Shown: positions 41,573 to 62,012 of the stretch, piece by piece
Layout of the letters: each line of letters begins with the position of its first letter
Numbering within the stretch: position 1 is the first letter of the stretch
Source of the DNA: Candidatus Thorarchaeota archaeon
Lineage (GTDB): Archaea > Asgardarchaeota > Thorarchaeia > Thorarchaeales > Thorarchaeaceae
Reading direction: 5' to 3'
DNA: 64,000 nucleotides
NCBI GenBank assembly: GCA_003345595.1
Contig: PRDI01000075.1
Coordinates: forward strand, 1-64,000
Position numbers and translations under genes: made by a program
The notes under the pieces: model-generated
Seen by the model: the letters and a program-made list of their open reading frames with translations, nothing else
The model's database searches: none
Told to the model about the DNA's origin: nothing

Positions 41573-42904
41573 CTACTTGAATCTCAGATGAGCATAGGCA
41601 GGTGTTACAGTGTCGAAGGCGAAGTGGACCTTCTGGTAGCTCTTTCTGAAGGCCTCAACCTCGGCAGATATCTTCTTGACGTTCTCGCCCTTCACAACAA
41701 CACGGTGCATGAATTCTGCAATGGTGTCCATTTCAGATTCCTTCATGCCTAGCCTAGTCATCTCACTGGTCCCCAGGCGAATACCACCCGGTTTCTTATA
41801 ATCGCGTCCCATCTTCTTATCCCAAGGCAGGAGGTTGCGATTGATGATTATGTTCGCTTTCTCAAGTTCTTCTTCGACAGTCCGTCCATTCTTCATCGGA
41901 GTGTCTGATACATCGATGAGTATCGTATGCGATTCCGTGAAGCCCTTGTGGGCTGCTACGACCTTCCAACCTTTGTCGTAGAGTGCCTGTGCAAGCGCTT
42001 TCGCGTTCTTAATGATCTGGTCCGCATACTGTTCCCCGAACTCCGTCATCTCAGCTAGTGCAACGGCAAGTCCGGCCACATTGTGTAGATGGTGGTTACT
42101 CATCATGGCAGGGAATGCCGCCTGCTTGACCTTCTCAGCGTATTCGGCCTTCGAGAGGACCATACCGTGCTGTGGCCCCGGCATTGTCTTGTGCGTTGAT
42201 GCAGTCACAATGTCTGCGCCTTCTCTCAGAGGGTCCTGAAACCGTCCTGCAGCAATGAGCCCAGAAACATGTGCAGAATCGTAACCGATGTGCATACCAT
42301 ACTCATCAGCAACTTCACGGAACTCTTTCACTGGGTGAGGAAAAGGGAAGACACTCCCTCCGAAGAGCAGAAACTCCGTGTGCTTTCCTTCTGCTTCTAG
42401 GCTTCTGATTTCCTTGATGCTAGCATCGACATCGATGTTGAACTCCTTCTCGTCGAAAGCGTAGTTGCGGACCTTGTGTCCCCTTACCGCCCCCGCGGTA
42501 CCGCCAAGGTCTCCTCTGGCGTGAGAGATATGGCCACCATGTGCAATGGACAGGGCAACCATCCTGGCGCCTGGCTCCATCATGGCAGTGTACATCATCA
42601 GGTTGGCGACCACTCCAGACACTGGACGCACGTCAGCAAACTCGGCTCTAAACAGCTTCTTCGCCAAGTCGATACAGATCAACTCGACTTGGTCGATGTA
42701 CACACATCCGGCATACACTCGTTCACCCGGCCATCCTTCTGCGTAGCGGTCTCTGAAGTCACAGACTATTGCTGATCTTACAGCAGGCGACGACACATTT
42801 TCCGATGCGATCAGATTGATAGTCTTGGTCATCCAGTCATCGTGTTGCTCTATGAGACTGAACACCTTGTCATACAGCTTTTTGTGCTCACTCAATTTCT
42901 GCAC
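41573..42904 (-). CDS. glyA: Serine hydroxymethyltransferase
   Basis: 'INLIASENVSSPAVRSA', 'DIVTASTHKTMPGPQHGM'. Confidence 0.95.
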   Translation of the reverse strand: MQKLSEHKKLYDKVFSLIEQHDDWMTKTINLIASENVSSPAVRSAIVCDFRDRYAEGWPGERVYAGCVYIDQVELICIDLAKKLFRAEFADVRPVSGVVANLMMYTAMMEPGARMVALSIAHGGHISHARGDLGGTAGAVRGHKVRNYAFDEKEFNIDVDASIKEIRSLEAEGKHTEFLLFGGSVFPFPHPVKEFREVADEYGMHIGYDSAHVSGLIAAGRFQDPLREGADIVTASTHKTMPGPQHGMVLSKAEYAEKVKQAAFPAMMSNHHLHNVAGLAVALAEMTEFGEQYADQIIKNAKALAQALYDKGWKVVAAHKGFTESHTILIDVSDTPMKNGRTVEEELEKANIIINRNLLPWDKKMGRDYKKPGGIRLGTSEMTRLGMKESEMDTIAEFMHRVVVKGENVKKISAEVEAFRKSYQKVHFAFDTVTPAYAHLRFK

Positions 42905-42990: not shown

Positions 42991-43000
42991 TCTCTATAAA
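42991..43000 (+). promoter_or_regulatory. TATA-like element upstream of tRNA-Lys
   Basis: TCTCTATAAA, about 30 nt upstream of the tRNA 5' end. Confidence 0.5.
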
Positions 43001-43026: not shown

Positions 43027-43167
43027 GGGCCAGTGGCTAAGCCAGGTATAGCGACAGGCTCTTACGTTTCTCAGTGGCCCCGCTGGGAGATGGAGATACC
43101 TGTTGGTCGGGGGTTCGAAAACCCCCCATATTCCATGGGGCGATCGACTATCCCCCCTGGCCCGCCA
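43027..43167 (+). tRNA. tRNA-Lys(CTT), CCA-encoded, with intron 43065-43097 (37/38) and probable second intron 43120-43150 (59/60)
   Basis: GGGCCAG/CTGGCCC acceptor, ACAGG-CTCTTA|A-CCTGT anticodon arm, GGGGG-TTCGAA|T-CCCCC T arm after removing both introns; BHB around intron 1. Confidence 0.88.
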
Positions 43168-43175
43168 TTTACTTC

Positions 43176-44417
43176 TCATCTACGTTGGGGGTCAGTTTCG
43201 GCAGCGAATGAAACGGCGCTCTGCAGATTTTGATACAGCTGAAGCAGCAACATTGAGTGTTTTTGTAGGTCAAAGCGCTTTTCGACAGTGTTGCGGGCGT
43301 TTTTTCCTAGTTTCACCCGCAGTGCGAAGTCCGACATAATCCGACGGACCGCCTTCGTGAGTTCATCGACATCTCCGGGCGACACAGTGAAACCGTCATA
43401 GGCGTGGGTGACAATCTCGCTGGGGCCGTGAATGTTCGAGGTGATGACAGGGACTCCACAGGCCATTGCCTCAATAACAGAAAGCCCAAACGGTTCCTCT
43501 CTGGATGGGTACAGGAAGACTCGGATACTGTTCATGAGACTCGGAATCCTATCAATTGGTACGACACCCAAGTAATCTACTTGCTCAATCACATTCATTC
43601 TCCCGAAATCATTAAAGACTTCCCTACGAATTGATCCATCCCCAGTAATCACAAGACGAATGTCAGGGAAGTGGGGCTTCAGAGCTGACAGCATCTCGGG
43701 AAAGAGGTCCACTGCCTTCATTCGTTCAAGTCTTCCAAAGAACCCTAAATCCCACTTTCTCTTGAGCCCTGTCTGTGGCTGGAATATTGAGAGATCCACT
43801 CCAAGGTAGAGTACATTTACTCTCTTTCTCAGACGTTTCGAGAGATGAGCTTGTAGTGCAACCTCTACGGCTCTGCTGACTGCAATGATTCTATCAAATG
43901 GACATGATTCTGCGAGCTGCCTGTAGTCTGTGGTTTTCTCTCCGTTGGGAAGGACTAGGGCCTTGGGGAGACCGTGAATGGTCGCAAGCACTGGCACGTT
44001 GACAAGTCTGTTCTTACGTAGTTTCTCAATCACTCTGTTGAAGACCACATACGTGCTGTGTGCGTGAATTATGTCAGGGGAAATGTCGTGGACTAGAGAG
44101 TTGAGTTGACCTGCCAATATCTCAACATCACTAGCAACATCATCCTGCCTAAAGATGCGACCAGCAGCCTTCGCCCGTTCTTCTTCGGGTAATGAGAGAA
44201 AGTCCCACTTCCGCGCCTCTAGGAGATTCCCCGGAAGGTGAAAGAGCGTGTAGTATGGCCGTTTCACTGATTCTGGAGAGTTCGTACCCGGCGGTTGAGT
44301 CACGATGAATGACTCGTGTCCCTGCGATTCAAGTGCCCTTGAGAGATAGTGCAGGTAGGACTCATAGCCTCCAACGCCTGAAGGGTTGAGGCTATCGCAG
44401 ACATGGAGAATCCTCAT
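43176..44417 (-). CDS. Glycosyltransferase family 4 protein
   Basis: GT4 motifs 'SREEPFGLSVIEAMACGVPVITSNIHGPSEIV'. Confidence 0.92.
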   Translation of the reverse strand: MRILHVCDSLNPSGVGGYESYLHYLSRALESQGHESFIVTQPPGTNSPESVKRPYYTLFHLPGNLLEARKWDFLSLPEEERAKAAGRIFRQDDVASDVEILAGQLNSLVHDISPDIIHAHSTYVVFNRVIEKLRKNRLVNVPVLATIHGLPKALVLPNGEKTTDYRQLAESCPFDRIIAVSRAVEVALQAHLSKRLRKRVNVLYLGVDLSIFQPQTGLKRKWDLGFFGRLERMKAVDLFPEMLSALKPHFPDIRLVITGDGSIRREVFNDFGRMNVIEQVDYLGVVPIDRIPSLMNSIRVFLYPSREEPFGLSVIEAMACGVPVITSNIHGPSEIVTHAYDGFTVSPGDVDELTKAVRRIMSDFALRVKLGKNARNTVEKRFDLQKHSMLLLQLYQNLQSAVSFAAETDPQRR

Positions 44418-45646: not shown

Positions 45647-46717
45647 TTGCACTTGATGTACTCCCCTAGACCCTTTCTCAGAATACCTGAAAGTGACGGA
45701 GATTGGGTAAGGAAGGCCCTCTTGACTGCCAATCTGCTCGACAAGGACTTCAGAATTGAATCGAGAGATGGTATGCTGTTCATTCCTCTGAGGCATGAGG
45801 TGGAACACGAGAGGATTCGAGAAATCCTTGGGGTCGTCGCCTTCGAAACCGGAAGGAAGGACTTCGACCCGCTTTCCAAGTGTCCAAGAACACTCAAAGA
45901 CGCATTGGCTGGCACGATGGGCGCCGAGCAAATGGCGTTGCTTCCCAGAGCGTACGATATGGTGGGTGACATAGCGGTGCTTGAGCTGCCAGAAGAGATA
46001 GCATCATATGGAAAGCAAATTGGCGAGGCATTCTTGGCAGTCCACAGCAGCTTCATGACAGTCCTAGCCAAAAGAGGCGCCGTGTCAGGTACTTCCAGAA
46101 CGCGACAGTATGAATTCCTTGCAGGCCAGAGAAAGACAAAGACTGTTCATACAGAATACGGTTGCAGAATTGCCGTGGACTTGGCAAAGGCCTACTTCAG
46201 TCCTCGGCTGCTTGAAGAGCACAGCAGGATTGCCAAACAGGTGAATGATGACGAGCTCATCATAGACATGTTCACCGGTGTCGGCTGCTTCCCTCTCCAC
46301 ATTACAAGAGCGCACGATTCTCGTGTGGTGGCAATAGACATCAACCCAGACGCAATCCGCTTGCTGAGAGAGAGCATGAGCATGAACCGGCTCAGAGGCG
46401 AGATTGTCCCGGTAGTGGCAGACTCAGGAGTCTACGTCCGGGCCAACTTCTTCAAGAATGCCGATCGCATCATAATGAATCATCCCTCAGGGGCTCTGGA
46501 ATTCGTTTCAGAGGCTTGTCATGCAATCAGGGACAATGGGGTAATTCACTACCACGCATTCACGGGAGCAGACAATTCGGACGAAGAGATGATCGAGAAG
46601 GTCACTCAAGTAATCAGCAAGAGCGGCCGGGATCTTGTTGAGATAGCACAACTGAAGCGTGTTCGCGAGAGTGCTCCTCACGAATACCAGATGGTTGCAG
46701 ACTTGATTATCCGCTGA
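45647..46717 (+). CDS. trm5: Trm5/TYW2-family tRNA methyltransferase
   Basis: 'LIIDMFTGVGCFPLHITRAHDSRVVAIDINPDAI', 'IIMNHPSGALEF'. Confidence 0.88.
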   Translation: MHLMYSPRPFLRIPESDGDWVRKALLTANLLDKDFRIESRDGMLFIPLRHEVEHERIREILGVVAFETGRKDFDPLSKCPRTLKDALAGTMGAEQMALLPRAYDMVGDIAVLELPEEIASYGKQIGEAFLAVHSSFMTVLAKRGAVSGTSRTRQYEFLAGQRKTKTVHTEYGCRIAVDLAKAYFSPRLLEEHSRIAKQVNDDELIIDMFTGVGCFPLHITRAHDSRVVAIDINPDAIRLLRESMSMNRLRGEIVPVVADSGVYVRANFFKNADRIIMNHPSGALEFVSEACHAIRDNGVIHYHAFTGADNSDEEMIEKVTQVISKSGRDLVEIAQLKRVRESAPHEYQMVADLIIR

Positions 46718-61321: not shown

Positions 61322-61427
61322 TGGCGCCGCCGAGAGGGCTCGAACCTCTGACCAACAACTGTCTGGCGTTCGCTTTGACTAGCAGGACGGTAACAGGCTG
61401 TCGCTCTGCCGACTGAGCCACGGCGGC
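61322..61427 (-). tRNA. tRNA-Asn(GTT), CCA-encoded, intron 61361-61390 at 37/38
   Basis: GCCGCCG/CGGCGGC acceptor; GCTC…GAGC D arm; ACAGC-CTGTTA|A-GTTGT anticodon arm; AGAGG-TTCGAGC-CCTCT T arm. Confidence 0.93.
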
Positions 61428-61906: not shown

Positions 61907-62012
61907 TGGTGGGCCCGGGGGGACTTGAACCCCCGGCGGGCAGGTTATGAGCCTGCTGCTTACGGCGCTCGCTCTGGAACGAGTGGGCTCTACCAAGCTG
62001 AGCTACGGGCCC
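61907..62012 (-). tRNA. tRNA-Met(CAT), elongator-like, CCA-encoded, with about 29-nt noncanonical intron between D stem and anticodon stem
   Basis: GGGCCCG/CGGGCCC acceptor; GCTC…GAGC; GCAGG-CTCATAA-CCTGC; GGGGG-TTCAAGT-CCCCC; extra segment within 61957-61986. Confidence 0.9.

Follow-up and report, generated by a model that had tools for sequence, protein, structure and literature searches.

Can a tRNA gene of an Asgard archaeon be interrupted inside the T-loop and still yield an ordinary tRNA? Positions 43027–43167 of the window (the whole 64,000-nt stretch of the Candidatus Thorarchaeota contig PRDI01000075.1 analyzed here) raise this question. The first-pass annotation had read the segment as tRNA-Lys(CTT) with two introns, 43065–43097 and 43120–43150. 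This is borne out by an intron-permitting alignment, in which removal of these 33 nt and 31 nt, respectively, yields a 77-nt tRNA-Lys(CTT), and by comparison with an ortholog from the same genus. On the joint evidence, we consider it highly probable that 43027–43167 is a functional Thorarchaeia tRNA-Lys(CUU) gene with two introns of the bulge–helix–bulge (BHB) type, predicted to be transcribed, spliced by the endonuclease EndA, and ligated.

Anatomy of the gene and its first intron

All parts of the gene lie on the forward strand. Exon 1 (43027–43064, tRNA positions 1–37), delimited by the alignment and by comparison with orthologs, which in named genomes come almost all from 'Candidatus Thorarchaeota', is followed by intron 1 (43065–43097) at the canonical position 37/38, exon 2 (43098–43119, positions 38–59), intron 2 (43120–43150) at the T-loop position 59/60, and exon 3 (43151–43167, positions 60–76), which ends with the encoded CCA at 43165–43167. 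After double splicing, the mature tRNA is GGGCCAGTGGCTAAGCCAGGTATAGCGACAGGCTCTTAACCTGTTGGTCGGGGGTTCGAATCCCCCCTGGCCCGCCA. A TATA-like box, CTATAAA (42994–43000, forward strand), precedes the mature 5′ end by 33 nt; of 18 orthologs, 13 have a motif of this kind at −32 to −35, and in two it lies farther upstream. The gene is adjoined by a glycine-hydroxymethyltransferase-like gene (41573–42904) and a glycosyltransferase-like gene (43176–44417), both on the reverse strand and named from reading their translations. Nearby, an ORF at 45647–46717 (forward strand) resembles a Trm5-like tRNA methyltransferase, judging by its translation only.

Intron 1 shows both features of archaeal BHB tRNA introns: its removal restores a canonical tRNA, and a four-pair helix lies between two three-base bulges. 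As the first-pass annotation had it, this BHB is strict: CTCT (43059–43062) pairs with GGAG (43092–43095) with one wobble, and the bulges are TA|C and AT|A; the inner and outer helices are each paired in four of four positions. The intron is present, in a diverged form, in the same-genus ortholog. No significant sequence similarity was observed between introns 1 and 2.

Standard tools describe the locus poorly. ARAGORN reports no tRNA at 43027–43167, and none if intron 2 is left in, while the spliced sequence is recognized as tRNA-Lys(ctt). The Rfam match covers only 43027–43135, with 29.7 bits against the cut-off of 29 and a misplaced 3′ end; the corresponding structure, in which the C-run of intron 2 closes the T-arm and the gene ends at 43135, leaves the acceptor stem unpaired and was therefore rejected. 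Annotation pipelines lose or shorten such intron-bearing tRNAs, and therefore the tRNA sets of Asgard archaea are probably undercounted.

Intron 2 and its boundaries

The spliced exons coincide with the ortholog from another genome of the same genus (G001) in 77 out of 77 bases, and this ortholog does not contain intron 2, the difference being exactly 31 nt. Taken together, the exon identity and the exact absence exceed a match expected by chance, and the latter is the clearest single evidence that 43120–43150 is an intron and not a part of the tRNA. The two genomes are sisters with full support in the tree of EndA alpha and beta subunits. The gene anatomy, the conservation of the exons, and the precise presence and absence of the intron between sister genomes are direct observations.

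Removal of intron 2 restores a canonical tRNA with a seven-base T-loop. The boundaries 58/59 and 59/60 yield an identical product, and base pairing favours the latter. The inner hairpin is formed by 43124–43129 and 43135–43140, and the central helix, by 43114–43117 and 43145–43148. In the 59/60 register, three of the four central pairs are formed, with U54 opposite C; the four-pair central helix of a strict BHB is thus lacking at these splice sites, and the BHB of intron 2 is relaxed, a form recorded for known introns as well (PMC6379350). The earlier placement of this intron in the T-loop at about 59/60 agrees with these data; its description as having only a relaxed BHB holds for the 59/60 register, while a strict four-pair helix exists in another one.

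Indeed, a slide by one pair inward adds the pair A58–U and produces a stronger four-pair helix, and canonical cuts there leave a nine-base T-loop. The intron would then be 29 nt long, cut after 43120 and after 43149 within a UCGA/UCGA helix, leaving the loop UUCGAAAAU and, across the T-loop, the sequence GGGGGUUCGAAAAUCCCCC. This variant forms four pairs, bulges three bases on the 5′ side, and comes out best in predicted energy (−21.2 kcal/mol; the 59/60 register by itself gives −17.5 kcal/mol), and its length agrees with the 29–30 nt of T-loop introns in other Thorarchaeia. However, the T-loop has seven bases in the same-genus ortholog and in the other mapped tRNA-Lys genes, the minimum-energy structure shifts the T-stem by one base, and the 59/60 register is common to the relatives: among seven introns at 59/60 from two isoacceptors, the central helix pairs best in this register, and the pair G57–C of the window's gene, which corresponds to A57–U in four of the six others, is compensatory. 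Folding of the precursor assigns about 78% of the predicted ensemble to the exon T-stem and about 22% to structures in which the C-run of the intron mimics the 3′ strand of the T-stem. Since the orthologs keep seven T-loop bases and share the register, the 59/60 cut, expected to produce GGGGGUUCGAAUCCCCC across the T-loop, is far more likely, and we regard the nine-base loop as improbable.

Even less probable, in our opinion, is that the gene is a young pseudogene, disrupted by a recent 31-nt insertion that is not removed, so that tRNA-Lys(UUU), or a copy outside the assembly, reads the Lys codon AAG. The sister genome without the insertion and the imperfect central helix would be compatible with such an origin; on the other hand, all 77 exon bases are intact and the TATA-like box is in place. 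A second complete tRNA-Lys(CTT), which according to the first-pass annotation would have spoken against the two-intron gene were this locus unexpressed, was not found in the assembly of the window's genome, which is 83% complete, so that a further copy is possible. Moreover, T-loop insertions of the same type occur in two other tRNAs of this genome, tRNA-Lys(TTT), with a 29-nt intron at 59/60 and a strict BHB (G000:C52:6349-6454, L188), and tRNA-Gln(CTG), with a 30-nt intron at 59/60 (G000:C86:13696-13801, L218), and these genes would have to be dead, too. Finally, an artefact of sequencing or assembly in this metagenome-assembled genome is very improbable, as the insertion, while known from one assembly only, shows the pairing expected for a BHB intron, and T-arm introns of equal size occur in independent genomes, in one of them (G021) at the same position 59/60.

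T-arm introns and the splicing endonuclease in Thorarchaeia

Thorarchaeia as a lineage are rich in T-arm introns. Complete tRNA-Lys(CTT) genes were obtained from 33 Thorarchaeia genomes, and 22 of these genes carry a T-arm intron that can be removed to leave a seven-base T-loop: 13 introns are located at 56/57, four at 53/54, three at 58/59, and two, including that of the window's gene, at 59/60. Other intron positions in this family are 22/23, 30/31, 37/38, and 43/44. T-arm introns were also observed in nine of the 30 mapped tRNA-Lys(TTT) genes.

No gaps are needed to align the 13 introns at 56/57, whose proposed hairpin and central helix are 96.9% paired, with ten out of 15 pairs changed on both sides (46 cells); in a control with slid partners, 23.7–46.7% of positions are paired, with two to seven double-sided cells. 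The evidence for compensatory base changes in these introns is strong, and the recurrence of T-arm introns with covarying stems in the relatives is directly observed.

Two tRNA-Lys(CTT) genes have four BHB introns each, at 22/23, 30/31, and 43/44, and, in the T-arm, at 56/57 (G011:C68:170099-170293, L044/L136) or 59/60 (G021:C1:159559-159753, L043/L137), each intron forming three or all four of its central pairs. The published maximum is three introns per tRNA gene (PMC4033280, PMC8450103); four, if confirmed in RNA, would exceed it. The two genomes are near twins in EndA, and the difference in the best placement of their T-arm introns looks like intron sliding across the A run at positions 57–59. 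Among 19 genomes on the EndA tree, the presence of a T-arm intron changes at least four times, and its state, at least seven times; these counts are lower bounds only, because the tree has a poorly resolved backbone, with 11 of its 22 inner branches open. Intron 2 also resembles T-loop introns in tRNA-Lys(TTT) of two other genomes (G002 and G008), with shuffle p of about 0.001–0.002, uncorrected for 12 comparisons and inflated by C-rich hairpins, so this sequence likeness, of the sort that intron transposition between tRNAs as in Thermoproteales would leave, is suggestive only.

In the window's genome, introns outside the T-arm were found in tRNA-Asn(GTT) (61325–61427 of the window, reverse strand; 30 nt at 37/38), tRNA-Met(CAT) (61910–62012, reverse strand; 29 nt at 22/23, strict central helix), and tRNA-Glu(CTC) (the G000:C49:33333-33391 region, L020; 32 nt near 10/11, strict central helix). 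This set derives from 25 Rfam hits only and may miss multi-intron genes; tRNA-Gly(TCC) and the Leu tRNAs, whose intron maps are ambiguous, were left out. The intron near 10/11 conceals the 5′ end of the tRNA-Glu(CTC) gene from standard searches.

Some other Thorarchaeia have additional, truncated 5′ copies of tRNA-Lys(CTT): three in L074, and copies on the reverse strand in L061 near 7627, L070 near 7831, and L072 near 5725. They retain the promoter, which reads CTATAAA or nearly so, and in many cases the 30/31 intron, and most of them end within or just before the T-arm; no integrase-like genes were seen in their neighborhood. L040 and L041 (G023, G004) and L121 (G045) contain a tRNA-Lys(CTT) that lacks introns and differs in its body. 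This tRNA is the same in genus g4 as in G045, which belongs to genus g6, reflecting either transfer between lineages or contamination, G045 being 9% contaminated.

The first-pass annotation expected a T-loop intron to need a permissive splicing endonuclease. The window's genome encodes two different EndA-family (PF01974) subunits, as do nearly all sampled Asgard genomes. The alpha subunit aligns over its full length with EndA of Aeropyrum pernix (3p1z_B, E = 4.5e-49), and residues K44-P45-R46 of the 'Crenarchaea-specific loop' (CSL) in the latter are matched by K-P-K in the former. The K-P-K motif is present in all 25 alpha subunits of the tree set, and K-P-[KR], in every alpha of the wider Asgard set aligned. 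The catalytic Tyr and His are also retained in the alpha subunits of all 25 tree genomes, along with the RK motif, whereas in the beta subunits of the same genomes the His site is occupied by T, S, N, V, P, or A. The subunit make-up and the CSL motif are seen directly in the proteins, and the pair of an alpha and a catalytically incomplete beta subunit is, as far as sequences tell, of the kind expected. In Crenarchaea, EndA composed of alpha and beta subunits and bearing the CSL cuts relaxed BHB motifs (PMC6379350, PMC12397907); by analogy, the Thorarchaeia enzyme may be (alpha-beta)2 and act on relaxed motifs.

For this locus we infer transcription, cleavage, and ligation, as well as the quaternary structure of EndA, as follows. 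The TATA-like box at −33 would direct transcription of the pre-tRNA-Lys(CUU); the presumed (alpha-beta)2 endonuclease with the CSL would excise both introns, cutting the strict BHB at 37/38 and the relaxed one within the T-loop at 59/60; and a tRNA ligase would join the exons, resulting in the standard seven-base T-loop UUCGAAU.

In a broader scenario, which we propose tentatively and rate at slightly below even, Thorarchaeia experienced a burst of tRNA introns similar to that in Thermoproteales, with T-arm introns gained, lost, slid, perhaps transferred between Lys isoacceptors, and accumulated up to four per gene. The burst would have been enabled by a CSL-bearing (alpha-beta)2 EndA, the CSL being either older than the split of Asgard archaea and Crenarchaeota or shared later; if so, this loop is not limited to Crenarchaea. 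A CSL-bearing alpha/beta EndA and numerous relaxed introns in the archaea nearest to eukaryotes bear on the origin of eukaryotic tRNA splicing, and the introns and enzymes of Thorarchaeia provide concrete substrates and enzyme sequences for testing.

Comparison with known tRNA introns and endonucleases

The position 59/60 is not new, as it is already listed for archaea, and T-loop introns are known as well (PMC6379350). Non-canonical BHB introns of Crenarchaeota, chiefly Thermoproteales, occur at 20/21, 22/23, 25/26, 29/30, 30/31, 45/46, 53/54, 56/57, and 59/60 (PMC4090602). Like those of Thorarchaeia, they have BHB structures, include 56/57 and 59/60, and co-occur with each other and with introns at the canonical 37/38. 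The present host, however, belongs to Asgard archaea, and two of its relatives reach four introns per gene. The earlier remark that such introns are known mainly in Thermoproteota should be extended by a Thorarchaeia host with T-loop introns common in its relatives and present in two other tRNAs of its genome.

Closer in taxonomy, Atabeyarchaeia and Freyarchaeia are reported to have introns, often non-canonical and multiple, in most tRNA genes (PMC11291895); these are also Asgard archaea, but of other classes, and the main text of that report covers neither Thorarchaeia tRNAs nor the endonuclease. We found no reports on Thorarchaeia tRNA introns or on the EndA type of Asgard archaea in the open-licence literature, and the set of Thorarchaeia introns, the genes with four introns, and the presence of the CSL in EndA of Asgard archaea appear to be unreported in the literature searched.

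The (alpha-beta)2 EndA of A. pernix (3P1Z) shares with the Thorarchaeia pair the Tyr, His, RK motif, and CSL Lys-Pro-Lys of the alpha subunit, and a beta subunit without the catalytic His (PMC12397907, PMC6379350), while the pair described here comes from Asgard archaea, and its assembly and activity are predicted. Outside archaea, tRNA-Ile(UAU) of Cyanidioschyzon merolae has introns in the D-, anticodon-, and T-arms (PMC9602550), and hence the same combination of T-arm and anticodon-loop introns as the window's gene; C. merolae, however, is a eukaryote, and its T-arm intron resides at 53/54, compared to 59/60 in the gene considered here.
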